This document shows positions 181-11,143 of a DNA stretch of 64,000 bases, piece after piece. The translations under genes and the position numbers were made by a program. This DNA is from Aliidiomarina haloalkalitolerans (GTDB lineage Bacteria > Pseudomonadota > Gammaproteobacteria > Enterobacterales > Alteromonadaceae). The first letter of the stretch is position 1. Each line of letters begins with the position of its first letter. The notes under the pieces were generated by a model. That model was not told where the DNA came from. It was given only the letters and a program-made list of their open reading frames with translations, and did no database searches. The stretch is taken from assembly GCF_003987315.1 (NCBI RefSeq), contig NZ_PIPI01000001.1, positions 558,001 through 622,000 on the forward strand, written 5' to 3'.

Positions 181-711
181 TTACTGCGCTTGTTTACGCT
201 CGATGAAAATAGTGATATCACCAACGCGGAAACCGAATTTGCGCATTTCCGTTTTGTTAATTAAGCGGTTTTCATCGAGCAAAAACATCCAATCATCAAG
301 GGTGACTGATATCGTGCCATCACGAAATGGCACTTCTAATTGGTAGACCCAGTGCAGTGCGTTACCCACGGTGGTACCCCGGGCTTCGCCAACCACATCA
401 CCGGCTGTACCGATATAAGTATTATCGGCCACTTTGGTTAAACGCCAAACTCGCGTTTGCTCGCGGCCGTCGTCCCAATAAAAGACTTCATCGAGCACGC
501 CGTTGGCACCTTCCCAACTGGCGTCAATTTCAGCTCGAAAGCGCTGAGTTACTTTGCCTGAGCGATCTTGTACCATGCCATACGCGACTAGGTCGCCAAC
601 AAAGAACTCATCTAAATGTAATGCTGGTTCCACGCCCTGATAATCCTCGATCTTGCTACTGCAACCTGCTAATAAACAGACTGCTATCAACCCTAACCAA
701 ACTTGTTTCAT
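181..711 (-). CDS. DUF3833 family lipoprotein
   Basis: This 176-residue protein starts with a lipoprotein signal: MKQVWLG, a hydrophobic stretch and the lipobox LLAGC, so it should be anchored in the envelope. The rest is a beta-rich domain (motifs FFVGDLVAYGMVQDRSG, WRLTKVADNTYIGTAGDVVGEA) matching DUF3833, a family of unknown function. I chose the ATG at 711 because it follows a purine-rich GAGAGCGGGG and overlaps the stop of the upstream gene by 4 nt, which indicates translational coupling. It is the last gene of the photolyase/CFA operon. DUF3833 proteins recur in ChrR-linked lipid clusters, so a lipocalin-like role with a modified lipid is possible, but that is inference. Confidence 0.85.
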   Translation of the reverse strand: MKQVWLGLIAVCLLAGCSSKIEDYQGVEPALHLDEFFVGDLVAYGMVQDRSGKVTQRFRAEIDASWEGANGVLDEVFYWDDGREQTRVWRLTKVADNTYIGTAGDVVGEARGTTVGNALHWVYQLEVPFRDGTISVTLDDWMFLLDENRLINKTEMRKFGFRVGDITIFIERKQAQ

Positions 712-1262
712 CCCCGCTCTCCTACTAATTCGTCGCGACTGCGACGAAAACGTGCCTGTTCTGACAGCCAAATGGCAAAAAACCGTTCCGCGAATCCGGG
801 GGCTTCAATTACACCGAGCTCGCGCTCACGCGAAAAGAATCGGGTTCCACCCTCTTCATTACGTACAGCAACGATACAGTCGCCTGAATTAACGTCTGGC
901 CACATAGCGTTGAGTTCAGCAAGCCAAGTTTCCGAATCAGAGGTCACGAGATCCATACGTTCCCACTCGTCACGGGTTTGATTGACCAACTGTTGTGCAC
1001 TGAAGTTTCGCGCGTATTCGATAGCTAAAGCGACTTGTTCGGCATTGTCTAAATCACCGCTATCGGTAAACAACGCAGCATCGTAGATACGCATGAATAG
1101 AACTCGTAAACGCGTCTCACCGACAGGCTTTAACGCTTCCGCGATTTGCGCTTCGTTTTGGCTTTTAGCTGCATTTAAACATTGTTGTGAAGCCTGTACT
1201 GGCAACGCAACACACGCTGCACAAAAAGCGAATGAGACGAGAGCTTTACTTAACTGCACCAT
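708..1262 (-). CDS. Chalcone-isomerase-like exported protein
   Basis: A 184-residue protein with an N-terminal signal peptide (hydrophobic core, cleavage after PVQA) followed by a chalcone isomerase-like fold; the stretch LRVLFMRIYDAALFTD is typical of the family. In bacteria this fold is not known to isomerise chalcones. Related proteins bind fatty acids or are of unknown function, so the export signal and the neighbouring CFA-like enzyme suggest a lipid ligand (inference). The ATG at 1262 is preferred over a start 30 nt upstream because it follows AAGAGG at 7 nt and begins right before the signal peptide. Its end overlaps the DUF3833 start by 4 nt. Confidence 0.8.
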   Translation of the reverse strand: MVQLSKALVSFAFCAACVALPVQASQQCLNAAKSQNEAQIAEALKPVGETRLRVLFMRIYDAALFTDSGDLDNAEQVALAIEYARNFSAQQLVNQTRDEWERMDLVTSDSETWLAELNAMWPDVNSGDCIVAVRNEEGGTRFFSRERELGVIEAPGFAERFFAIWLSEQARFRRSRDELVGERG

Positions 1263-1314
1263 AGACAAACCTCTTAGTGATGCGATGACCAACCGGTATA
1301 TGTTGCTATAGTGC

Positions 1315-1872
1315 TCAGGATCGAGAGTCAGCTGGCGCTCGATGTGGTTGCACTATCGCAGCAATAATCACCATCATTACGCTCCAAAACAGGCTATAGA
1401 CCACCAGCGCAGGTAAGAAATTGACTTGGAGCTCGGCCGCACCTAAGCGCTCACCGGCGAAATAGGTAATGGGGCCAAAAATAGCTCCGAGCACCGCCGC
1501 AATTACGAAGCGTTTGCGCAAGTAATCAAAAACCACCAATGCCATGCCGCTAAAACCAACCCAAAGCAAAATCAGCCAGAGGGGAATCCAGTCTGTGCCA
1601 GTAAAGCGGATAACACCGAAGGTTACAGTCGCCAACTCGAGCAAACAACCTAGCACCACTAAACCCATTAACTGCCAACGTTGCCGCCAGAGTATCTTGG
1701 GTGTTGCCGCAAACATCAGGAAAATCAGTAAAAATGTCAGCCAAAGCCAGCCTTCGCGCCCGAGCACTGCTGCTAACCAGACAAAGTCGAAGATGAAAAA
1801 AGCTGCTAAGCGATGATTGCCTAACAGCTTCCAAAGTAAGGCCCTTAGGCGCGGGAAGATTTGCTGGCGCAT
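1315..1872 (-). CDS. DUF2878 family inner-membrane protein
   Basis: This 185-residue protein is strongly hydrophobic, with about four to five predicted membrane helices (for example FFIFDFVWLAAVLG, LTFLLIFLMFAA, GLVVLGCLLELATVTFG, VVYSLFWSVMMVIIAAIV). It matches DUF2878, a family of unknown function often found beside CFA-like methyltransferases and DUF3833. Its start overlaps the end of the methyltransferase gene by 28 nt, so the two are co-translated. The first 20 residues are basic and the exact start is uncertain. A role in moving or presenting a membrane lipid intermediate is possible but not shown. Confidence 0.8.
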   Translation of the reverse strand: MRQQIFPRLRALLWKLLGNHRLAAFFIFDFVWLAAVLGREGWLWLTFLLIFLMFAATPKILWRQRWQLMGLVVLGCLLELATVTFGVIRFTGTDWIPLWLILLWVGFSGMALVVFDYLRKRFVIAAVLGAIFGPITYFAGERLGAAELQVNFLPALVVYSLFWSVMMVIIAAIVQPHRAPADSRS

Positions 1873-3089
1873 AATTGAATGGCACTGATTGTACGTTGTT
1901 TAAAACCACCTTCGCAGTAGCAGAAATAGTAATTCCACATGCGTGCAAAACGTTCGTCATAGCCTAGAGGCTCAAGCTCATGCCGACGGGCGTTAAAACG
2001 CTGACGCCAAGCATTCAAGGTTTTGCCATAGTCAAGACCAATGTCACTCACAGACCGAATAACCATATCGGTGTGGCGGCGATACATTTTGCCCAGTAAC
2101 TCAATCGACGGCAAATAGCCCCCTGGGAAGATATATTTTTGAATGAAATCAACGCTGCGGTTATAACGCTCAAGGCGTTGATCAGCGATAGTAATCGCCT
2201 GTAGAACCATCAACCCACCTGGCTTCAATAACGCATTGCACTGTTTGAAAAAGGTACTCATGTATTCAGCACCGACCGCTTCGATCATCTCGACTGAAAC
2301 AAGCTTGTCATACTGACCACGCAGGTCACGGTAATCTTCAATCAACAAAGTGATTTTATCTTCCAGCCCGCGTTCTTTCACCAAAGCCTGGGCATAGTCA
2401 TATTGCTCACGAGAGATGGTGGTCGTCGTCACCTTGCAGCCATAATTTTCTGCGGCGAAAATAGCTAAACCACCCCAGCCCGTACCGATTTCCAACAAAT
2501 GGTCCTCGGGAGTTAGAGCAAGTTGATCACACAGGCGCTTCAATTTTTCGCTCTGCGCTTCATCAATGGTCATCTCGTCGGTCGCAAAAACAGCACTTGA
2601 ATATTGCATACGTTCGTCGAGGAAGCGTGTATACAACTCATTACCCAAATCGTAGTGCGCTGAAATGTTCTCTTTTGCCCGCGCTTTACTGTTTCTGCGA
2701 CGAACATGGCTGAGCATATGTAGCGGCCAAGACAGCCACGCTAGGCGCTTGTCGAGTTCATCGAGAACGTTTAGGTTTGCGGCGAACAGTTCGATCACCG
2801 CAGTCAGGTCATCAGATTCCCAGTAACCGGCCATGAAAGCCTCACCGGCACCAATGTCACCAGAGAAAACGAGCGCACGATAAGTGCGTGGGTCATGAAT
2901 TCTAATCTCAGCTTGGGGGCCAGGGTGATTGCCGCTAAACCTAGCAACTTCTGTTTGGCCTTCACGAATCACTATGGTTCCATATTGCAAGCGTTTGAGA
3001 ACGGTAAATAGAATCTTGCGCGCAAAGCGGTCGAAACGACTAAACGACTGACTTTGGGTCATAAATGATTCACTCGTTGTTGATGGCAT
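1845..3089 (-). CDS. Cyclopropane-fatty-acyl-phospholipid synthase-like methyltransferase
   Basis: A 414-residue SAM-dependent methyltransferase of the CFA family, which methylates unsaturated acyl chains already in membrane phospholipids. The N-terminal lipid-binding domain (about 1-125) is followed by the catalytic core with SAM motif LLEIGTGWGGLAIF near residue 195, then QKYIFPGGYLPS and the C-terminal YYFCYCEGGF, all family hallmarks. The ATG at 3089 follows AAGGA at good spacing. Genes of this family within RpoE/ChrR regulons (Rhodobacter CfaA/UfaM) make methylated unsaturated chains en route to furan fatty acids rather than plain cyclopropanes. The flanking FAD and DUF1365 genes make that a real alternative here, but sequence alone does not settle the product. 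Confidence 0.93.
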   Translation of the reverse strand: MPSTTSESFMTQSQSFSRFDRFARKILFTVLKRLQYGTIVIREGQTEVARFSGNHPGPQAEIRIHDPRTYRALVFSGDIGAGEAFMAGYWESDDLTAVIELFAANLNVLDELDKRLAWLSWPLHMLSHVRRRNSKARAKENISAHYDLGNELYTRFLDERMQYSSAVFATDEMTIDEAQSEKLKRLCDQLALTPEDHLLEIGTGWGGLAIFAAENYGCKVTTTTISREQYDYAQALVKERGLEDKITLLIEDYRDLRGQYDKLVSVEMIEAVGAEYMSTFFKQCNALLKPGGLMVLQAITIADQRLERYNRSVDFIQKYIFPGGYLPSIELLGKMYRRHTDMVIRSVSDIGLDYGKTLNAWRQRFNARRHELEPLGYDERFARMWNYYFCYCEGGFKQRTISAIQLCASKSSRA

Positions 3090-3120
3090 ATCAGTTCCTT
3101 GGAAACTTATTTGAGCGTTC

Positions 3121-3882
3121 TTATTGACGCTTGTTTTTGCCGGGATGGCCGTAAAATGGGACGCGTTTGACTATTAAACGCAAAGCTTGCCAATAAATCG
3201 CAGCAACTGCTTTTGCGGTCATCCAAGGCGTTTGCTTAAATACGTAGCGAATGCTCGAACGGTTTAATGGCATTCGTTTTAAACGCATTGACGCCGTAAA
3301 TATTTTTTCTTGTCGCCACAGCTCAATTTGCACGCCTAGCGGCGAATCTGCAACGAATTTAGGCAGCTCTAAGCGCCACCGGTAATCCATATCGATGGGA
3401 TTAAACGGTGACACATGAAAAGCTTTTTCATGTTCAAGTGCTTGGTCGAGAGCCAACAAGTAGTAATGACGCTCATTCCAGGGTGTATTACTTACCTCAG
3501 CGAGAACATGGGTGAATTCGCCGTCGTCATTCTCAAGGTAGTAGCAATTCAGGGGACTGAAGTACACACCAAAACAACGGACGTTGCCAAGTAAGTAAAC
3601 TCGGCCCGTTAGTTCGCGTTCGGCTAGCTCAGACATTTTTCGACGCACGCAATCGGCTAACGACTCGTTAGACTCGCGGGGTTCATCGCGAAGGTAATCT
3701 TGTTGACGCAACGAAAAGGCAGCAAAACCACCGTCAACCCGCAAAAGCCGACTGTTGTCCCCTGCCGTTGCAAGATCATCAAGGTCGAGCCACCACTGTG
3801 ACAATTGATAACGGAAACCATGTCGCTTTGGTGTATAGCGTTGGTGGCCGACATGGCCGATGTAAACCGCATGATTACTCAT
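3121..3882 (-). CDS. DUF1365 family protein
   Basis: A protein of about 253 residues of the DUF1365 family. It has the characteristic start AVYIGHVGHQRYTPKRHGFRY, a central YFSPLNCYYLENDDG and the FHVSPFNPIDMDYRWR segment. No enzymatic activity is established, but the gene is almost always adjacent to an FAD amine-oxidase-like gene and a CFA-like gene, as here. The preceding gene ends 8 nt inside this one. An ATG 15 nt further upstream (3897) is possible, but the start at 3882 aligns better with the family N-terminus. DUF1365 and CFA-like proteins were reported as needed for singlet-oxygen signalling to ChrR in Rhodobacter, which supports a membrane-lipid role. Confidence 0.88.
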   Translation of the reverse strand: MSNHAVYIGHVGHQRYTPKRHGFRYQLSQWWLDLDDLATAGDNSRLLRVDGGFAAFSLRQQDYLRDEPRESNESLADCVRRKMSELAERELTGRVYLLGNVRCFGVYFSPLNCYYLENDDGEFTHVLAEVSNTPWNERHYYLLALDQALEHEKAFHVSPFNPIDMDYRWRLELPKFVADSPLGVQIELWRQEKIFTASMRLKRMPLNRSSIRYVFKQTPWMTAKAVAAIYWQALRLIVKRVPFYGHPGKNKRQ

Positions 3883-5176
3883 AATAAGCTGGTTCATCCG
3901 GTGTGATTTCTATTCCTAAGCGACGCACTACGTCAATGGCACTGCGGACGCCGTCCTCATGAAAGCCGTTGTACCAGTATGCACCACAAAAATGCGTTCG
4001 ATTCTGACCACAGATTTCATCACGGCGTGCGCGTGCTCTAAATGACGCCAGCGAATACACCGGATGCGCGTAAGTGAAGCGACGTAGAATTTTGTCCTCA
4101 GCAATTGCGGCGGTATTGTTCAACGTCACGCAGAACGTTACCGGAGCGTGTTCGATGCCTTGCAGAATATTCATATTATAAGTCACGGTCGCTGGCTTCT
4201 CTTCGGCCTGCTCACGCACAGATGCCGGCAGTAAATAGTTCCAACTAGCCCAGGCGGCTTTGCGTTTGGGTAGCTGACTCACATCTGTATGCAAGACCAC
4301 ATCGTTATCTTGATAAGGAATGCCGCCCAGCACTTCTTCTTCAGCCACAGTAGCATCGGAAAGTAACGCCAGGGCTTGATCACTATGGCAAGCAAAAACA
4401 ACCTGATCGAATTGTTCAATGCGCCCGTCGGCAAAGTAAAGTACCGCTGCATTCACATGGCGCTCAACCCGCTCAATTTCTGCGTTTAATTCGATACGTT
4501 CAGCGAATGGCTGTGTAAGAGCAGGAATATAGCTTCGGGAACCACCTTTAATTACATGCCATTGCGGACGGTCTTGAATGTTCAACAAACCATGGTTCAT
4601 AAAAAAGCGCAGGAAAAAACCAAGTGGGAATTGTGCCGACTCTTTTAAACTCGCCGACCAAATCGCCGCACACATCGGGTATAAGTAGTTGTTTGCGAAA
4701 TCCTCGCCAAGCTGCAATGCCGATACGAAGTCAGCCAAAGTTTGACCATCCACCTCAGCTTCCGAGCGTGTTTCAAGAGCCTCTTTAGCCGCCTTATTGA
4801 AGGTCACAATATCACCGAGCATACGATAGAAGCTTGGTCGTAAAAGATTGCGTTTCTGTGCAAATAACGTCCATAGACTATGGCCGTTGTATTCAAGACC
4901 ACTCAGAGGATTCTTGACTGAAAAGCTCATTTCCGTGTCTTGCCATGCCACCCCATTCCGCCGCAATAAAGTTTTAAAGTAAGGGTAAGTACGGTCGTTA
5001 AAGACAATAAAACCGGTATCGATTGCGAAACTCTTGCCGGCAACTTCAACATCAACTGTCGCAGTATGGCCGCCAATATAATCACCTTTTTCAAAGACCC
5101 AAACTTCATGCTGCTCACTTAACAAATGCGCTGCCGTTAATCCAGCAATACCCGAGCCAATGACGGCAATTTTCAT
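3875..5176 (-). CDS. FAD-dependent amine-oxidase-like dehydrogenase
   Basis: A flavoprotein of about 433 residues. The N-terminal dinucleotide-binding motif is IAVIGSGIAGLTAAHLL with the following acidic strand end (VFEKGDYIGGHTATV), and the body is of the flavin amine oxidase / protoporphyrinogen-oxidase-like type; the C-terminal FAD segment includes HFCGAYWYNGFHEDGVRSA. The ATG at 5176 follows AAGGAT and lies directly before the Rossmann motif; an in-frame start 33 nt upstream adds only a Cys-rich stub. In this context the substrate is more likely an acyl chain of a phospholipid than an amine (compare the UfaD desaturase of the Rhodobacter furan fatty acid pathway), but orthology needs a search. 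Confidence 0.9.
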   Translation of the reverse strand: MKIAVIGSGIAGLTAAHLLSEQHEVWVFEKGDYIGGHTATVDVEVAGKSFAIDTGFIVFNDRTYPYFKTLLRRNGVAWQDTEMSFSVKNPLSGLEYNGHSLWTLFAQKRNLLRPSFYRMLGDIVTFNKAAKEALETRSEAEVDGQTLADFVSALQLGEDFANNYLYPMCAAIWSASLKESAQFPLGFFLRFFMNHGLLNIQDRPQWHVIKGGSRSYIPALTQPFAERIELNAEIERVERHVNAAVLYFADGRIEQFDQVVFACHSDQALALLSDATVAEEEVLGGIPYQDNDVVLHTDVSQLPKRKAAWASWNYLLPASVREQAEEKPATVTYNMNILQGIEHAPVTFCVTLNNTAAIAEDKILRRFTYAHPVYSLASFRARARRDEICGQNRTHFCGAYWYNGFHEDGVRSAIDVVRRLGIEITPDEPAYYE

Positions 5177-5268
5177 ATGAAATCCTTTAGTAAAACAAGG
5201 GTGACACAAGCACCCAAAGCAACAACGAGTGAAATTTTATAAGGTTAGATGTAGTCGCTTACCAAAGG

Positions 5269-6003
5269 TTACGAGCGCATACGGGACGATAGTCCTACTT
5301 GCCAACGGTAAGGCAGCCGATGTAAAAACGCCAACATCCAGCCAAATATACGTGGGAAAGCGATATGTGGTTTACCACCCGCTAAACCTTTTTGAATGGC
5401 GATACTTGCCTTGGCAACCGAGATTCGCATGGGCATTTCAAAATCATTGGCATCGGTCATGGGCGTTTCGACAAAACCGGGTGAAATAGTCGTCACCGCG
5501 ATGCCATGATCTTTCAGATCCGTCCGCAAGCTGCTGGCGAAATAATGTACAGCAGCCTTGCTTGCGCCGTAGGCTTCCGCTCGGGTGAATGGAAACAGCC
5601 GCGCCATGCTATCGACGATCGCAATCCGAGCTCCGCTTTGCATGTGCTGAACTAAGGTTTCACAACAGTACACCACACCGAAAAAGTTCGCGGCAAAAAC
5701 TCGTTCGACGAGAGCTGCATCGAATGACTTTGCATCGTCGATATATTCACACACCCCAGCGTTGAGGATCGCTAGGTCTAACTGTTCTAGGTTGCTCAGT
5801 GCATTTTGTACCTGCTCGCGCTCGGTAACGTCAAATACGACGGCATGAAAATGATTCTGCTGAGTCGGTGGCAGTTCACTTTGCAGCGCTGCTAGTTTTT
5901 CCTGATTGCGCCCGCAAGCATAAACATCATGTCCAGTAGCAAGGTAATCAAGCGCCAGCTGTTTCCCAATTCCTGAGCTTGCACCGGTAATTAATATGTT
6001 CAT
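5269..6003 (-). CDS. Short-chain dehydrogenase/reductase
   Basis: A classical SDR of 244 residues. It has the cofactor motif ITGASSGIGKQL at the N-terminus, the NAG motif in ILNAGVCEY, a catalytic Ser in AIVDSMAR and the YxxxK motif in YGASKAAVHYFASSL. The substrate cannot be read from sequence. Its ATG overlaps the stop of the NTF2-like gene by 4 nt, so translation is coupled; a 92-nt gap separates it from the FAD gene. SDRs are regular members of the ECF/ChrR-associated lipid cluster, where they may reduce or oxidise an oxygenated lipid product (inference). Confidence 0.92.
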   Translation of the reverse strand: MNILITGASSGIGKQLALDYLATGHDVYACGRNQEKLAALQSELPPTQQNHFHAVVFDVTEREQVQNALSNLEQLDLAILNAGVCEYIDDAKSFDAALVERVFAANFFGVVYCCETLVQHMQSGARIAIVDSMARLFPFTRAEAYGASKAAVHYFASSLRTDLKDHGIAVTTISPGFVETPMTDANDFEMPMRISVAKASIAIQKGLAGGKPHIAFPRIFGWMLAFLHRLPYRWQVGLSSRMRS

Positions 6004-6452
6004 ACACCCGCCAATTTATTGCGTACTTTGCCAACCACCCAGCCTAACAGTGGAATATGTTCATAAATCATCGCGCCAAGGTCATAGTAATCAACATGCT
6101 CTTTGATCCGATTTTCATCCTCAGCAAACAACAAATGACTCGTGCCCGGAATTTGAATCTCGCGCCCGCCAGCAAGTTTCTCGTGTTGTAAACGCATTTG
6201 CCAAACGAGAAAGGCCTGTTCGCGGTCGACCATGGTTTTTTCTATGGCAAATTTGCACGTCAATGCATTTTCCAAACCATGGGCTAAATAGTCACGTAAC
6301 TGATCGCGACCTTGAACTAATTGCACTGGATCTTTAAAAGTCACATCGTCAATGTAGATTTGCTTCAAACTTGCCAAATCACGATCGTCGAGTTCGGCAT
6401 AAAAATCGCTAAACGTAGCAATTAACTCTCGACGTTCTGCTGTTTTAATCAT
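6000..6452 (-). CDS. NTF2-like / SnoaL-like protein
   Basis: A 150-residue nuclear-transport-factor-2-like protein. It opens with TFSDFYAELDDRDLASLKQIY followed by DVTFKDPVQLVQGRDQL, the usual helix and first strand of the fold. These small cone-shaped proteins act as enzymes (isomerases, dehydratases) or ligand-binding accessories, and the pocket residues do not identify the reaction. It begins with a well-placed AAAGGG and overlaps the SDR start by 4 nt. The consistent pairing with the SDR suggests the two act on one metabolite. Confidence 0.85.
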   Translation of the reverse strand: MIKTAERRELIATFSDFYAELDDRDLASLKQIYIDDVTFKDPVQLVQGRDQLRDYLAHGLENALTCKFAIEKTMVDREQAFLVWQMRLQHEKLAGGREIQIPGTSHLLFAEDENRIKEHVDYYDLGAMIYEHIPLLGWVVGKVRNKLAGV

Positions 6453-6488: not shown

Positions 6489-7979
6489 CTAACCAGAGGC
6501 TGCAGACTTCGCTACCTTAAACTTAGCAATAAAATCCGTTCGGCGCTCAGCATGATCAACGATTGGTACAGGATACGGTAAATCCTGACCATACTGAGCC
6601 GCCAAGTAGCTCGCTGGGTCGTGAATATACTTAGTCGGAACATCCGCTAACTCTTTGACCCACCTACGAATATAGCTTCCTTCCGGATCAAATTTTTCGC
6701 TTTGTCGGAATGGATTAAAAACACGAAAATACGGTGCAGCATCGGTGCCTGTGCCCGCACTCCATTGCCAACCACCATTGTTGGCCGCAAAACTACCGTC
6801 AATGAGTCGTTGCATGAAATAGCGTTCGCCCCAGCGCCAGTCAATATGCAAATCTTTCACGAGGAAACTTGCCACAATCATCCGCACTCGGTTGTGCATC
6901 CAACCTGTCTCATTGAGTTGCCGCATACCAGCATCAACAATCGGAACACCGGTTTTGCCTTCGCACCAAGCGGCAAATTCAACTTTATCATTGCGCCATG
7001 GGAAACCGTCGGTCTCCACTTGAAATGCTTCACCGCGACTCAAGCGTGGCTCATGAAACATTAAATGTTGGTAAAATTCTCGCCAAGCCAATTCCGACAA
7101 CCACGTGTGCGCACCTTCCGACAGCCCGAATGGAAAATCCGGTGATTGTTTTTGGAGTAAGTGCGCAGCCACTCGGGGCGACAGCACACCGATTTCAAAA
7201 TAAGCTGAAAGCATTGATGTCCCGTCTAGGGCAGGTAAATCACGTTGCTGCTTATAATCCTGCACTTGCTCGCGTACATAGCGCTGTGCCTTGCGCCGGA
7301 CATCACCCTCTGTTACCGACCAAGCCTCGCTCGTCAAGACGGGTCTGGCAGTTTGTGCGGGTGCTTGGGCTGTTACATCATGTTTGGCAGTATTCTGATT
7401 GGCGCGTTTGATTGTTTCGCGAGTATAAGGCGCGGGTATGCCAACGTTGGCCAAATGCTGAAGCCAGGCTTTGAAAAACGGCGTAAACACTCGATAGTAC
7501 TCACCTTTGCCGTTCTTAATTTGTTCCGGTGCCACTAGCACGTTGCTATCAAGCTGATTAACGTGCACATCAACTTCGACCAAAACCTGCTCAACTTGGT
7601 GATCGCGCCGGACTTCATCGAGTGCATAATCACGATTCCAGTAAACAGCAGTAGCATTGTGTCGTTGCGTAAACTCACACAATGCATCAGGAATCGCCGC
7701 ATAATCCGGAACGTCAAGGACCGTCAATACAATCCCGAGCTCGGCAAGTTCATTGGCTAAAGTAACGAGACGACGCTCATATAAGTCCCATTTAATCGCT
7801 GACCAGTCGTGCTGCAGCCATTGTTTCGGAGTTCGAAGGGCAACTGCATGGACGCATTCATGATTCACACAGGCTCGCTGCAGCGCATCATTATCGAGTA
7901 CTCGCAAATCCTGGCGAAACCAAACTATTGCCGCACTTGTTTCTCGGTGACTGGTCTCTGCTTTAACTGTGGATGCCAC
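6489..7979 (-). CDS. phrB: Deoxyribodipyrimidine photolyase
   Basis: A 496-residue class I photolyase/cryptochrome-family flavoprotein that repairs UV-induced pyrimidine dimers with blue light. The N-terminal alpha/beta antenna-binding domain opens with AAIVWFRQDLRVLDNDAL. The C-terminal FAD domain has FYQHLMFHEPRLSR, TGWMHNRVRMIVASFLVKDL and GGWQWSAGTGTDAAPYFR, the flavin- and DNA-contact segments of CPD photolyases. The start is GTG at 7979 after AAGGAAGAG; no better ATG lies upstream. Photolyase is a core target of ChrR-linked ECF sigma factors, and a candidate promoter of that type lies upstream at 8062-8089. It follows a YbgA-like gene, as in Escherichia coli. Confidence 0.95.
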   Translation of the reverse strand: MASTVKAETSHRETSAAIVWFRQDLRVLDNDALQRACVNHECVHAVALRTPKQWLQHDWSAIKWDLYERRLVTLANELAELGIVLTVLDVPDYAAIPDALCEFTQRHNATAVYWNRDYALDEVRRDHQVEQVLVEVDVHVNQLDSNVLVAPEQIKNGKGEYYRVFTPFFKAWLQHLANVGIPAPYTRETIKRANQNTAKHDVTAQAPAQTARPVLTSEAWSVTEGDVRRKAQRYVREQVQDYKQQRDLPALDGTSMLSAYFEIGVLSPRVAAHLLQKQSPDFPFGLSEGAHTWLSELAWREFYQHLMFHEPRLSRGEAFQVETDGFPWRNDKVEFAAWCEGKTGVPIVDAGMRQLNETGWMHNRVRMIVASFLVKDLHIDWRWGERYFMQRLIDGSFAANNGGWQWSAGTGTDAAPYFRVFNPFRQSEKFDPEGSYIRRWVKELADVPTKYIHDPASYLAAQYGQDLPYPVPIVDHAERRTDFIAKFKVAKSAASG

Positions 7980-8061
7980 GGCCTCTTCCTTCTCACGATG
8001 ACGACAATTTTCAGCTGATGGTTTAAGTTTTTAACCACAAGCCTTCGATTAGAGCCAACAA

Positions 8062-8089
8062 TTACAGCCCATAACGCAGTTTTAGATCA
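8062..8089 (-). promoter_or_regulatory. Candidate ECF-type promoter for the photolyase operon
   Basis: On the minus strand TGATCT (8084-8089) is followed after 16 nt by CTGTAA (8062-8067). This resembles the TGATCC-N16-CGTTAA arrangement before the sigma factor gene. It sits at the very end of the upstream DUF523 gene and would give a leader of about 70 nt. Matched by eye only; the -10 is not identical to the other site. Confidence 0.35.
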
Positions 8090-9006
8090 TCGGGATAAGG
8101 TTGAAAATACGATTGCTCCTGCAAATATAGGTCGGGAAACATGTGAAGGTAATGCCGCATCATAGTTAGTGGTGCTGCTAACGGTTCAGTTCCGCGGCGA
8201 TAGTCTAAGACTAATTGTGCTAAGGCAGTGCGTTGCTTCGAGTCAATGTGCTTTCGGAAATACCCTTGTACGTGCTGCAACACGTTGGTGTGATCACGGC
8301 GTGAAGCAGGTTTGCTAAGAGCACGCATTAAACGAAATATATAATTAGTCAAAAATTCATCACTCAGCAAATCTTGCTGCGCAAGCTCTTTGCCTAGCGC
8401 ACGATAGACGCCCTGATTATGCGCAAGTAATAACAATTTATGACGGGCATGAAAACGATACAGGTCTTTCTTCGTGAGCGGTTGTGGTAAGTTTTTCCAT
8501 TCGTAGTACACGTACATGCGTAAGACAAAGTTTTCCCGCAAAGCCGCGTCATTTAAGCGACCATCTTCTTCCATCGGCAAGGCTGGATAAAGTACACGTA
8601 ATTTAGCTGCAAAAATGCCCATACCTTCCTTGCGATTAGCGTTGCTCTCTTCGTTGTAAAGCCTCACCCGCTCCATCCCGCAGCTCGGTGATTTCGCACA
8701 AAGAATATAACCCGACAATTGATCGAGCTGCGATGTACGAACCGTGGCGAAATTGGCTAACTTATCGGTCACATCCTCACCCGTCTTTTGCACCACAGCG
8801 CGCGTGTCTTCGGGCGTGCCAACCAAACGAATGGTGGGTCGCGGTACGGACATGCCAATTCCGACTTCTGGACAAAGCGGCAAGTACTCAACATGTTTTG
8901 CAAGTTGATGCTGACAAAAATCGTTAGCTTTATGGCCACCGTCATAGCGAACTTTTTTTCCAACTAAACATGCGCTAATACCCACGTACACTGGCGCTTG
9001 ACTCAT
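8062..9006 (-). CDS. DUF523 and DUF1722 domain protein (YbgA-like)
   Basis: A two-domain protein of 314 residues. The N-terminal DUF523 part (about 1-155) has cysteine motifs GISACLVGKKVRYDGG and LCAKSPSCGMERVRLY. The C-terminal DUF1722 part (about 190-310) resembles E. coli YbgA (FHARHKLLLLAHNQGVYRALGKELA). The function is unknown; the cysteines suggest a metal or Fe-S site. In E. coli ybgA lies directly before phr, and the same order is kept here, 82 nt before the photolyase. The ATG at 9006 follows AAAGGA. It may be co-transcribed with phr or have its own promoter in the short divergent gap. Confidence 0.9.
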   Translation of the reverse strand: MSQAPVYVGISACLVGKKVRYDGGHKANDFCQHQLAKHVEYLPLCPEVGIGMSVPRPTIRLVGTPEDTRAVVQKTGEDVTDKLANFATVRTSQLDQLSGYILCAKSPSCGMERVRLYNEESNANRKEGMGIFAAKLRVLYPALPMEEDGRLNDAALRENFVLRMYVYYEWKNLPQPLTKKDLYRFHARHKLLLLAHNQGVYRALGKELAQQDLLSDEFLTNYIFRLMRALSKPASRRDHTNVLQHVQGYFRKHIDSKQRTALAQLVLDYRRGTEPLAAPLTMMRHYLHMFPDLYLQEQSYFQPYPDDLKLRYGL

Positions 9007-9138
9007 TTTCTATCCTTTAAAATAGTTTTAACCAACATAGATCCACTTTCTTCATCCTGACGTAAAAATTTGCATACGCCAACCTCTGGCATGAAATTGT
9101 TTGATCTTAGTCGTATTCATAGGCACAGGAATTTAGTA

Positions 9139-9759
9139 ATGGCGACGCCAAACTCAACAACATTAGGGTTATTTCCTTTGACCTCCACGGTACTCCCGGG
9201 CGGTCGCATGCAGTTGCGTGTGTACGAACCTCGCTACTTACGGCTCGTGCGTGAATCGTTACGTGAGCAAACCGGCTTTGGATTGTGCATGCTCAATCCA
9301 AATGGTGACCGCGACCTAAACACTCACGTCTACAAAGTTGGTACTCTTGTACGAATTATCGATTTCGAAACACTCGCAGATGGCTACTTGGGTATCACGA
9401 TTCTTGGCGAACGTTTATTCGAAATCGATGAAATTGAAACTGAGTCAGACGGCTTACGACGCGGCCACGTGCATTTTAAGTCGCCTGCTGCCTCGATTCC
9501 GATGACCGATTCGGAAGTTTGGGCACATGAATTGAAACAGCGTCTCGAAGAAGTTTTTAATAACTACCCAGAAATCGCGCGACTCTATCCGGATCGAAAC
9601 TTTGAAGACCCAACTTGGGTCTGTAATCGTTGGTTAGAATTATTGCCGCTGCCTGGGGAAGTGAAACAGGATCTCTTGAGCGAAAATAACTTTAGCCAGA
9701 TGTTGGCTTACCTCGCCCAACTGTTTGCGGAAAATGAACAACAAAACGAATTAAACTGA
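9139..9759 (+). CDS. LON substrate-binding-domain protein
   Basis: A protein of about 206 residues consisting of the N-terminal (LAN/PUA-like) domain of Lon without the ATPase or protease parts; the diagnostic opening is LGLFPLTSTVLPGGRMQLRVYEPRY. Stand-alone proteins of this type exist widely and their role is not well defined. A TTG at 9070 is in frame, but the ATG at 9139 has an AGGAA 9 nt upstream and fits the family start. It lies between the divergent DUF523 gene and the ECF sigma gene. In other marine gammaproteobacteria a LON-domain gene is often near the photolyase cluster (from memory). Confidence 0.88.
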   Translation: MATPNSTTLGLFPLTSTVLPGGRMQLRVYEPRYLRLVRESLREQTGFGLCMLNPNGDRDLNTHVYKVGTLVRIIDFETLADGYLGITILGERLFEIDEIETESDGLRRGHVHFKSPAASIPMTDSEVWAHELKQRLEEVFNNYPEIARLYPDRNFEDPTWVCNRWLELLPLPGEVKQDLLSENNFSQMLAYLAQLFAENEQQNELN

Positions 9760-9768
9760 TCTCGATAC

Positions 9769-9796
9769 TGATCCAAAATTACAGCCATTACGTTAA
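9769..9796 (+). promoter_or_regulatory. Candidate autoregulated ECF promoter of the sigma/anti-sigma operon
   Basis: TGATCC (9769-9774) is followed after 16 nt by CGTTAA (9791-9796), 56 nt before the sigma factor ATG. TGATCC is the -35 type I recall for Rhodobacter RpoE (ChrR partner). A second partial copy, TGATCT, lies at 9757-9762. Autoregulation is usual for such ECF operons. Found by eye; no transcription data. Confidence 0.5.
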
Positions 9797-9852
9797 TCCA
9801 TGTAGTCGATAATTCAAGTTTGTTTGGTGCGGGTTAAATAAAGGCGTACACT

Positions 9853-10488
9853 ATGATGCAAGTCATGCCAGAAAAGCGGGTCAACCGACAGTACATGAAA
9901 ACGAACAGTGCAAGTCCGCAAGACATTACCCCAGAACACCTCGCTGCGTTGTTAGCCGAGGTAGCAGTGCAGCGTTCGCGGCGCGCCTTTGCCGAGCTCT
10001 TCAAGCACTTCGCGCCACGCTTGCAAAGCTTTGCAACCCGTCAGTTCGGCAATGAACAGACAGCGATGGACTTGGTTCAAGAAACCATGACCAATGTTTG
10101 GCACAAAGCGCATTTGTTTAGCCCTGAGAAAGGCTCGCCCACCACTTGGATTTTCACCATTGCGCGAAATATTCGGTTTGATATCTTACGGAAAAGCAAG
10201 AAAAACCAAAATGACATAAGTGCTGAAGAGTTGTGGCCAGTGTTGTCTGAAGAAATGTCTGACAGCGACGATGAGTTCGCCATCGACCAAACCATTCTTC
10301 TGCAAGAAATTACAAGTTATTACAACCAATTACCAGACGCACAGCGTGAGGTAATTGTTTCCATTTATATCGAAGGCAAGTCGCAACAAGAAGTATCGGA
10401 CGAGCTTGGTATTCCATTGGGTACGGTAAAATCACGTACCCGCTTGGCGTTACAGAAACTTAGAGAGTTGATTACTGACCATGATTAA
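9853..10488 (+). CDS. ECF RNA polymerase sigma factor (ChrR-partnered, RpoE-like)
   Basis: A 211-residue extracytoplasmic-function sigma factor. The sigma2 region spans about 35-105 (AFAELFKHFAPRLQSF, AMDLVQETMTNVWHKA, PTTWIFTIARNIRFDILR) and the sigma4 region about 150-205 (LPDAQREVIVSIYIEGKSQQ, IPLGTVKSRTRLALQKL). The ORF starts ATGATG after AAAGG; a start at 9895 is less likely. It overlaps the ChrR-type anti-sigma gene by 8 nt, which fixes them as a pair. In Rhodobacter and Vibrio the orthologous pair responds to singlet oxygen or light stress; the adjacent photolyase and CFA-like genes support the same role here. Confidence 0.93.
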   Translation: MMQVMPEKRVNRQYMKTNSASPQDITPEHLAALLAEVAVQRSRRAFAELFKHFAPRLQSFATRQFGNEQTAMDLVQETMTNVWHKAHLFSPEKGSPTTWIFTIARNIRFDILRKSKKNQNDISAEELWPVLSEEMSDSDDEFAIDQTILLQEITSYYNQLPDAQREVIVSIYIEGKSQQEVSDELGIPLGTVKSRTRLALQKLRELITDHD

Positions 10489-11143
10489 ATTCCATCCAAA
10501 CGAAGAACTGCTTGTGCAGTACGTACAGGGAAATCTCGACAGCGCCCTCGCCGTTGTGGTTGGTACCCATATTGACATGTGTCAGCACTGCAAAGCTCAC
10601 GCACGAGACATCGAAACTCATTTATCAGCAAAAGAGCTCGGTGCCAGTACCGACTTCAGCGAGCTGACGATGCAAGCGATGCTTGAAGATATTCTCAATT
10701 CGGCTGCGCCAGCAATCAGTGCGCCACAACAGATCCTTGATAAAGTAACGGTTGAAGGCAAGCAGTTCCGCCTCCCACCGGCGCTTAAGCGCGTTTCTCA
10801 CCGCTTAGGCGACTGGAGCAAAGTGCCTGGCTCAGTATGGCGTGCACCATTAAAAGTAGATGATCACAGTGCAGTGAATCTAATCTACATGGGTGCAGGT
10901 GCGTCAGTACCTGAACATACTCATCGCCAACACGAAGCCACTTTGGTAATCAACGGTACCTTCAATGATGAACACGACCGCTATCACGATGGCGACTTTG
11001 TTTTCCTTGGTGCGGATCATCGTCATTCGCCACAAACTGCAGAGGAAGACTGCTTAACCTTGGCTTGGCTCGATGCCCCACTACAATTTACTTCAGGTAT
11101 GGCTCGTTTACTCAATCCGTTTAGCAGTTTATTCTTTAAGTAA
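10481..11143 (+). CDS. chrR: ChrR-type zinc anti-sigma factor with cupin domain
   Basis: A 220-residue cytoplasmic anti-sigma factor. The N-terminal zinc-binding domain (about 1-85) has His5, His30, Cys34 and Cys37 (HIDMCQHC), the ligand set of the ZAS fold that holds the sigma factor. The C-terminal cupin (about 100-195) has His146, His148, Glu152 and His182, which correspond with a uniform offset of 5 to the cupin zinc ligands of Rhodobacter ChrR as I remember them (141, 143, 147, 177). All eight ligands are therefore present, so a singlet-oxygen-type release mechanism is plausible. It starts inside the last codons of the sigma gene and is followed by two hairpins. Confidence 0.93.
   Translation: MIKFHPNEELLVQYVQGNLDSALAVVVGTHIDMCQHCKAHARDIETHLSAKELGASTDFSELTMQAMLEDILNSAAPAISAPQQILDKVTVEGKQFRLPPALKRVSHRLGDWSKVPGSVWRAPLKVDDHSAVNLIYMGAGASVPEHTHRQHEATLVINGTFNDEHDRYHDGDFVFLGADHRHSPQTAEEDCLTLAWLDAPLQFTSGMARLLNPFSSLFFK

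Follow-up and report, generated by a model that had tools for sequence, protein, structure and literature searches.

Which modified fatty acid does a cyclopropane-synthase-like gene cluster of Aliidiomarina haloalkalitolerans make, and in what setting does the cluster operate? We examined this question in a 64,000-nt stretch of the A. haloalkalitolerans genome (hereafter the window), for which an initial annotation had proposed a modified, furan-type fatty acid pathway at positions 1845-6452, comprising a CFA-like methyltransferase, a DUF1365 protein, a flavin adenine dinucleotide (FAD)-dependent amine-oxidase-like protein, a short-chain dehydrogenase/reductase (SDR), and an NTF2-like protein. 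The window very likely encodes an entire operon for furan fatty acids (FuFAs), which protect cells against singlet oxygen generated by light, and this operon is controlled by, or adjoins, the RpoE-ChrR singlet-oxygen system. As judged from sequence and gene order, the three enzymes of the characterized pathway are all present beside the sigma factor and ChrR genes, from which we infer a furan product in this organism.

The reference pathway was established in Rhodobacter sphaeroides and Rhodopseudomonas palustris, where UfaM (RSP2144) methylates cis-vaccenoyl chains, UfaD (RSP1091) converts the product to a methyl diene, and the DUF1365 protein UfaO (RSP1090) forms the furan; together, these three genes are sufficient (Lemke et al. 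2020, PMC7380195). In the window, the five genes initially noted are all real open reading frames (ORFs) on the minus strand with the expected Pfam domains, and the furan-type assignment is supported for all three enzymes, which lie consecutively in the order ufaD-ufaO-ufaM. The predicted FAD-dependent methyl-branched fatty acyl desaturase gene ufaD (3875..5209, minus strand; Pfam Amino_oxidase, 1.6e-19) opens with TTG at 5209, with M12 (~5176) as the likelier start, and its product shares 43-45% identity, over 399-405 aa, with the UfaD proteins of four Rhodobacteraceae loci. Directly after it comes ufaO (3121..3897, minus; Pfam DUF1365, 1.3e-72), encoding the predicted furan-forming fatty acyl oxygenase, and then ufaM (1845..3089, minus; Pfam CMAS, 1.3e-86), whose predicted S-adenosylmethionine (SAM)-dependent fatty acyl methylase is 39-44% identical to UfaM of four Rhodobacteraceae loci. 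Each of the first two proteins is the only one of its kind in its own genome, the FAD protein at E ≤ 0.001. The overlapping gene order noted initially applies to the NTF2/SDR and FAD/DUF1365 pairs, but SDR and FAD are separated by 59 nt and DUF1365 and CFA by 31 nt. Likewise, the genes at 1845-6452 were correctly chosen but the span was too narrow, as it represents the middle of a larger locus, with DUF2878, chalcone-isomerase-like, and DUF3833 genes downstream (1872 down to 181) and photolyase, DUF523/DUF1722, LON-domain, extracytoplasmic function (ECF) sigma factor, and ChrR genes upstream (6489-11143). Transcription on the minus strand runs from DUF523/DUF1722 through photolyase, NTF2, SDR, FAD, DUF1365, and CFA-like to DUF2878, chalcone-isomerase-like, and DUF3833. 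What the initial annotation lacked was this singlet-oxygen context (photolyase, LON-domain protein, ECF sigma, and ChrR) and the equation of DUF1365 with UfaO.

Gene order across genomes strongly links these genes. A search of relatives detected DUF1365 in 45 of 58 genomes and a search of the phylum in 106 of 249 (own genome counted in both), giving ~142 distinct genomes besides the source genome. From these, 80 neighborhoods were chosen by hand for spread (60 same-class and 20 other-class; 20 kb each, apart from one of 15 kb and one of 15.5 kb), and profiles derived from matches of the window proteins served to annotate them. UfaD was the profiled gene immediately preceding UfaO on its strand in all 80 loci, and UfaD-UfaO-UfaM were consecutive in 74 (60/60 same-class and 14/20 other-class). 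The grouping of the five genes is far beyond chance. A second set came from named genomes, scanned with five aligned UfaO sequences of one alphaproteobacterial family; the best 80 loci were kept and are, by title, from Rhodobacteraceae and relatives. Among these best 80, 57 carried chrR and the sigma gene on one strand and UfaD-UfaO-DUF3833-SDR on the other, which is the published RSP1091-1087 order, an operon that adjoins rpoE-chrR (PMC3818230). The RSP1089-type transporter was not profiled, and three loci of the R. sphaeroides layout have a 428-434 aa ORF in its place. In R. sphaeroides, RSP2144 lies next to the photolyase gene RSP2143; correspondingly, among the 11 short loci drawn from the 11 genomes searched for CMAS genes, 10 have a photolyase gene as neighbor of the UfaM-type gene. 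Relative to R. sphaeroides, with its ufaM and its RSP1091-1087 operon (ufaD-ufaO-transporter-RSP1088-SDR), the window thus shares the three FuFA enzymes, SDR, DUF3833, sigma/ChrR, and the photolyase linkage, but has ufaM in one run with ufaD-ufaO, additional NTF2-like, DUF2878, and chalcone-isomerase-like genes, and no RSP1089-type transporter gene (~400 aa) visible in the run.

An alternative reading, in line with the older annotation of RSP1090/1091 and with pipelines that label such genes cyclopropane synthase, makes the CFA-like enzyme a second cyclopropane fatty acid synthase and limits the roles of the FAD and DUF1365 proteins to modifying, or signaling via, cyclopropane lipids. Escherichia coli Cfa does share with the window protein the Pfam family and the use of SAM to methylate cis double bonds in phospholipid. 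The residues of its bicarbonate site (C139, E239, H266, I268, and Y317) have been named (PMC3132707), and we scored these positions across 134 CMAS proteins (129 distinct). Window UfaM reads S-E-Q-I-Y, departing from the canonical Cfa signature with S for C139 and Q for H266, whereas the second CMAS protein of the same genome reads C-E-H-I-Y, retaining all five Cfa residues, and is 54% identical to E. coli Cfa. Among the 129 proteins, 88 had Q266 (position 139: 72 S, 14 A, one C, and one G), 31 combined C139 with H266 (position 268: 30 I and one V), nine had H and F and represent a third type, and one was a fragment. The fragment and 8 of the 12 genus rows were excluded from the tree, which comprised 120 rows; each residue group fell on one side of a branch, with Shimodaira-Hasegawa-like approximate likelihood ratio test (SH-aLRT) values of 97 for Q266 (80 rows), 100 for the third type (9 rows), and 35 for the Cfa type (31 rows). 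Phylogeny, proposed in the initial annotation as a check on the CFA-like protein, hence places it in the UfaM clade, apart from Cfa; this clade also includes 11 photolyase-type UfaM (ten from Rhodobacteraceae and one sharing the family code), while the second CMAS of the source genome clusters with E. coli Cfa. Irrespective of the tree, Q266 was carried by the CMAS closest to UfaO in 75 of the 76 loci having one, the exception being L118, with only a third-type gene nearby; L115 has an additional Cfa-type gene, farther from UfaO. H266 was found in 31/31 Cfa-group rows.

These residues do not by themselves settle the product. Cotton GhCPS1, which has S and Q at 139/266 (residues in PMC3132707), produces cyclopropanes in yeast and plants, and we therefore rejected the residue signature as proof of product: because an enzyme with the same changes still makes cyclopropanes, the S/Q signature marks a clade. 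Plant synthases likewise depart from the C139/H266-type signature. Expression of Halomonas ufaM in E. coli gave a methyl-alkene, with cyclic fatty acids also seen in that strain (PMC12089945), and an Agrobacterium protein pair, one homologue for each half of plant CPS, reportedly made no cyclopropane in yeast. Taking together the separate clade, the division between Q266 beside UfaO and H266 in the Cfa group, the presence of a dedicated Cfa with all five residues in the genome, and the family biochemistry (PMC7380195), a second cyclopropane synthase is very improbable, although the plant caveat stands. For UfaM as a furan-pathway methylase, the change of H to Q (and of C to S) at the bicarbonate site may shift deprotonation from the new methyl to the chain, yielding a methyl-alkene instead of a cyclopropane.

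The proposed pathway would begin with methylation by UfaM of phospholipid-bound vaccenoyl chains at their cis double bond, yielding 11-methyl-12-trans-18:1, which UfaD, with FAD, would desaturate to the 10t,12t diene; UfaO would then add one atom of O2 and close the methylfuran ring. The predicted UfaO model (predicted local distance difference test score, pLDDT, 77.4; predicted template modeling score, pTM, 0.79) consists mainly of strands and a long C-terminal helix. Foldseek returned nothing for it at E ≤ 0.001, its highest VIA Z was 6.8 (root-mean-square deviation, rmsd, 3.9; 122 aligned), a level typical for models lacking a clear match, and a sequence search against PDB gave nothing at E ≤ 1. 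Since there is no clear structural match, "beta-barrel" is used here as a description and not as a family call. Among histidines and acidic residues, only H18 (81/81) and E134 (80/81) exceed 93% conservation in the alignment; with one conserved His and one acid, UfaO does not show the 2-His-1-carboxylate signature of iron oxygenases. Published masses of the fatty acid methyl esters (FAMEs; diene 308.2, furan 322.2, and furan with 18O2 324.3; PMC7380195) correspond to a gain of 14, i.e., +O -2H, and diene plus O2 (340) equals furan (322) plus H2O (18). Because this reaction balances, the UfaO step may need no reductant, which would fit the wheat-germ UfaO assay, in which no reductant had to be added (PMC7380195). 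Within the literature searched, whose coverage was partial so that an earlier proposal is possible, we found no printed statement of UfaO stoichiometry; the passages retrieved for an endoperoxide mechanism concern chemical synthesis.

The SDR, NTF2-like, DUF2878, chalcone-isomerase-like, and DUF3833 proteins are accessory to this core. The NTF2/SnoaL-like gene (6000..6452, minus; Pfam SnoaL_2, 8.2e-17) and the SDR gene (5269..6003, minus; Pfam adh_short, 7.8e-45; the RSP1087 counterpart) precede ufaD; DUF2878 (1315..1872, minus; Pfam), a predicted membrane protein by the hydrophobic stretches read from its sequence, the chalcone-isomerase-like protein with a hydrophobic N-terminal stretch (708..1292, minus; Pfam Chalcone_3, 7.1e-07), and the DUF3833 lipoprotein (181..771, minus; likely start 711; Pfam, 9.4e-66) follow ufaM. 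In the NTF2-like protein, D41, D121, and D124 are kept in 50/50 proteins over 140 bits. A PHROGs scan of four small proteins gave no match. The window SDR is 28-33% identical to the operon SDRs of four Rhodobacteraceae loci and is of the RSP1087 type. The cluster profile gave 224-358 bits to cluster SDRs but no more than 97 to the remaining SDRs of these loci, so that the window's class and Rhodobacteraceae probably share one subfamily of cluster SDRs. DUF3833 shows 28-33% identity to three Rhodobacteraceae loci, has an N-terminal lipobox (LAGC) read directly from the sequence, and is, by position and length, the likely RSP1088 counterpart. Its predicted model (pLDDT 89.8) is a ten-strand, calycin-like barrel, with structural matches to a designed barrel (Z 16.2, rmsd 2.2, 128 aligned), BFA1 (16.0, 3.5, 155), the OssO spirocyclase (14.8, 2.5, 132), CpeS (14.2, 3.5, 144), and, lower, FABP4 (9.7, 3.2, 114), which points to a ligand-binding type of fold, a fold that alone does not show function.

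Could the SDR and NTF2-like protein instead add biosynthetic steps, as the initial annotation had suggested, and lead to an undescribed furan-derived product? Their conservation would favor this: NTF2 lies within 9.5 kb of UfaO in 54/80 loci (genus 12/12, other family members 13/14, other order members 15/15, other class members 11/19, other classes 3/20) and SDR in 64/80 (12/12, 12/14, 14/15, 12/19, and 14/20, respectively), the order NTF2-SDR-UfaD-UfaO-UfaM recurs in 47/60 same-class loci, and the SDR catalytic residues N106, S132, Y145, and K149 are retained in 52/52 best-scoring cluster SDRs. Yet the five-gene order occurs in 0/20 other-class loci, and an NTF2 gene on the operon strand within 9.5 kb of ufaO was found in 0/20 of these loci (the rest of those genomes not having been searched), although the pathway works in alphaproteobacteria. 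PMC7380195 reports that ufaM, ufaD, and ufaO suffice and that single deletions of RSP1087, RSP1088, or RSP1089 in a chrR deletion background altered nothing detectable, including the R. sphaeroides fatty-acid profile upon RSP1087 loss. Because that deletion did not detectably change the profile, a biosynthetic step for the SDR is unsupported. Further steps by the SDR and NTF2-like protein together are unlikely.

A role downstream of the furan may be considered instead. Furans react with singlet oxygen to give an enedione product. The SDR and NTF2-like protein, with the DUF3833 barrel lipoprotein, the chalcone-isomerase-like protein, and DUF2878, could form a downstream module which binds, reduces, or clears reactive enedione lipids after the furan has caught singlet oxygen. 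This would explain an unchanged FuFA profile upon SDR deletion in cells unexposed to singlet oxygen. We tentatively offer, as a possibility with a minor share of our confidence, the combined proposal that UfaO, a ligand-binding beta-barrel, acts as an O2-using cyclase which needs no reductant and converts diene and O2 via an endoperoxide or hydroxy-enone to furan and H2O without a conserved metal triad, and that the accessory module clears spent furan lipids.

The upstream half of the locus connects the operon to light stress. Here, the photolyase gene phr (6489..7979, minus; deoxyribodipyrimidine photolyase, NCBIfam NF007955, 531 bits, cut-off 506) and a DUF523/DUF1722 (YbgA-like) gene (8062..9006, minus; Pfam) are followed on the plus strand by a LON substrate-binding-domain gene (9070..9759; weak NCBIfam lon match over 39-228, same name and place in Pseudoalteromonas), an RpoE-ChrR-type ECF sigma gene (9853..10488; NF008890, 291 bits, cut-off 284), and chrR, encoding the anti-sigma factor (10481..11143; TIGR02451, 174 bits, cut-off 124.5). 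Promoters were scanned as TGATC-N16..18-CGTWW from 150 nt upstream to 20 nt inside the sigma gene and compared with shuffles. The adjacent sigma and chrR genes are preceded by a sigma-E-type promoter-like site of the TGATC...CGTAW kind, ending CGTTA in the window (TGATC-N17-CGTTA, 9769..9795, plus), with exact sites at the sigma gene in 26/49 loci versus 0.1 in shuffles. A second site, with one mismatch (AGATC-N17-CGTAA, 9039..9065, plus), lies upstream of LON, where sites with at most one mismatch occur in 24/29 loci versus 1.6 in shuffles, and in 12/13 loci of the genus versus 0.8. Because this site reaches 9065, the ATG at ~9139 is a likelier LON start than the listed TTG at 9070. Across the whole window, the bare motif was found three times versus 2.0 expected, and it exceeds chance only in its recurrence in front of sigma and LON in different genomes. 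For the operon itself, genus members have sites with at most one mismatch at DUF1722 in 3/13 cases (shuffles 0.7) and at phr in 6/13 (0.5), and exact sites in all loci precede phr in 6/43 (0.0) and ufaD in 6/81 (0.2).

One recurrent motif was set aside. Sigma-E promoter matches ~180-250 nt before the NTF2 gene were rejected as they lie inside photolyase coding sequence; in the window (6665-6690, minus) the mimic stands ~200 nt before NTF2, and it is seen in many relatives too. These sites are not promoters because a conserved photolyase peptide (DPEGSYIR in the window) yields TGATCC...CGTA, making the mimic an easy false positive in promoter scans.

Proximity to ChrR also bears on a regulatory reading, in which UfaD/UfaO products mainly serve to destabilize ChrR and switch on the sigma factor, with lipid protection secondary. 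In R. sphaeroides, RSP1090 is required for ChrR degradation under singlet oxygen and its loss stabilizes ChrR (PMC3818230). Many loci, from several classes, also have ufaD-ufaO close to sigma and ChrR. ChrR was nonetheless within 9.5 kb of UfaO in only 50/80 loci, enzymatic activity on lipid has been directly shown (PMC7380195), and the two roles do not conflict, since the signal could be the furan or its oxidation product. A primarily regulatory function is accordingly conceivable but doubtful. Under the FuFA operon reading, the furan lipid would scavenge singlet oxygen while photolyase repairs DNA.

Several observations weigh against this reading. Raw identity does not distinguish window UfaM (39-44% to Rhodobacteraceae UfaM) from E. 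coli Cfa (41% over 328 aa), and it is set apart from the latter because tree and residues separate them; that tree was built with the five signature columns kept in, the branch of the Cfa group itself is weakly supported, and GhCPS1 pairs S and Q with a cyclopropane product. The identity of UfaO to four Rhodobacteraceae loci is low (31-33%, over 139-231 aa). The UfaM references, and all identities to counterparts of the characterized operon, are from Rhodobacteraceae members with the published gene setting and layout, R. sphaeroides not being among the fetched genomes. Finally, a clear sigma-E promoter was not found upstream of the window's phr-ufa run (DUF1722 or photolyase genes).

The locus type is already in print, and its core is not new, with counterparts published or annotated in Shewanella, Pseudomonas syringae, Aeromonas, and Pseudoalteromonas. 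Thirteen window-locus genes are annotated together in Pseudoalteromonas sp. CuT4-3 as well. Shewanella oneidensis SO_3386-SO_3374 is a counterpart run including ybgA, phrB, and cfa, in which sigma-E-type promoters precede rpoE2, the LON-domain gene, and the ybgA-phrB-cfa operon (PMC4336711); P. syringae PSPTO_1121-1116 comprises phrB, SDR, amine oxidase, an RSP1090 homologue, and cfa (PMC5507510); Vibrio cholerae VC1122 is blue-light induced (PMC5241685); and Aeromonas salmonicida AxA69_RS13645-13670 forms an NTF2-SDR-FAD-DUF1365-cfa-DUF2878 operon, for which PMC10012899 states that there is no experimental information on function. The S. oneidensis, P. syringae, and A. salmonicida runs resemble that of the window but are described as RpoE-ChrR regulon or riboflavin-responsive, with a cfa annotation, and the available portions of these reports do not name the furan pathway. 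Halomonas sp. YLGW01 has, like the window, three consecutive ufa genes, and the accessible part of that study tested UfaM in E. coli by expressing only ufaM (and cfa). Arabidopsis AtUFAMD1 and AtUFAO1 are homologues of UfaM plus UfaD and of UfaO, the UfaM- and UfaD-like parts being fused in one plant protein.

Further variation was seen in other ufa loci. The third CMAS type (H266, F268) is present in nine of the 80 fetched loci (L082:13116-14150, L098:6425-7513, L104:12842-14140, L108:12684-14138, L111:5981-8059, L112:14609-15655, L116:14249-15289, L118:11974-13020, and L127:13951-15123). The closest PDB matches of the L116 protein, the only one examined, are plant coclaurine/pavine N-methyltransferases, which we take to be the family of Arabidopsis LIME1. 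LIME1 is a reported FufM homologue, and third-type proteins are candidates for dimethyl-furan methylases, an equation with FufM that we infer, the FufM sequence itself being outside the comparison. In the comparison search, matches in the third-type range (8e-43 to 3e-36) numbered four, three of them in ufa loci. The CMAS search of the A. haloalkalitolerans genome gave only two strong matches (next 2.4e-9), i.e., no FufM-like gene, so that a monomethyl furan is the expected product. Separately, the DUF1365 match was counted with one in-frame stop in two relatives (L006, genome G057; L018, genome G018), where ufaO may be broken. DUF1365 genes were also present in 93 of 72,556 plasmid-filed records (H1 and H12 being chromosome-sized), e.g., H9 (Aeromonas, 98 kb) and H38 and H39 (Acinetobacter). 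As 18 of these 93 records were typed mobilizable or conjugative, the furan pathway may move on plasmids.

Overall, this locus is ordinary in kind and well conserved, its core having been guessed correctly in the initial annotation and its setting under-described. Among the proteobacteria sampled, the full FuFA pathway is a common part of a light-stress locus and often carries a cyclopropane synthase annotation; the Q-for-H exchange at E. coli position 266, which divides UfaM from bacterial Cfa in our sample, could help fix this annotation. The UfaO stoichiometry and the conserved accessory genes frame two questions for the family, namely the cofactor or reductant of UfaO and the fate of spent furan lipids.

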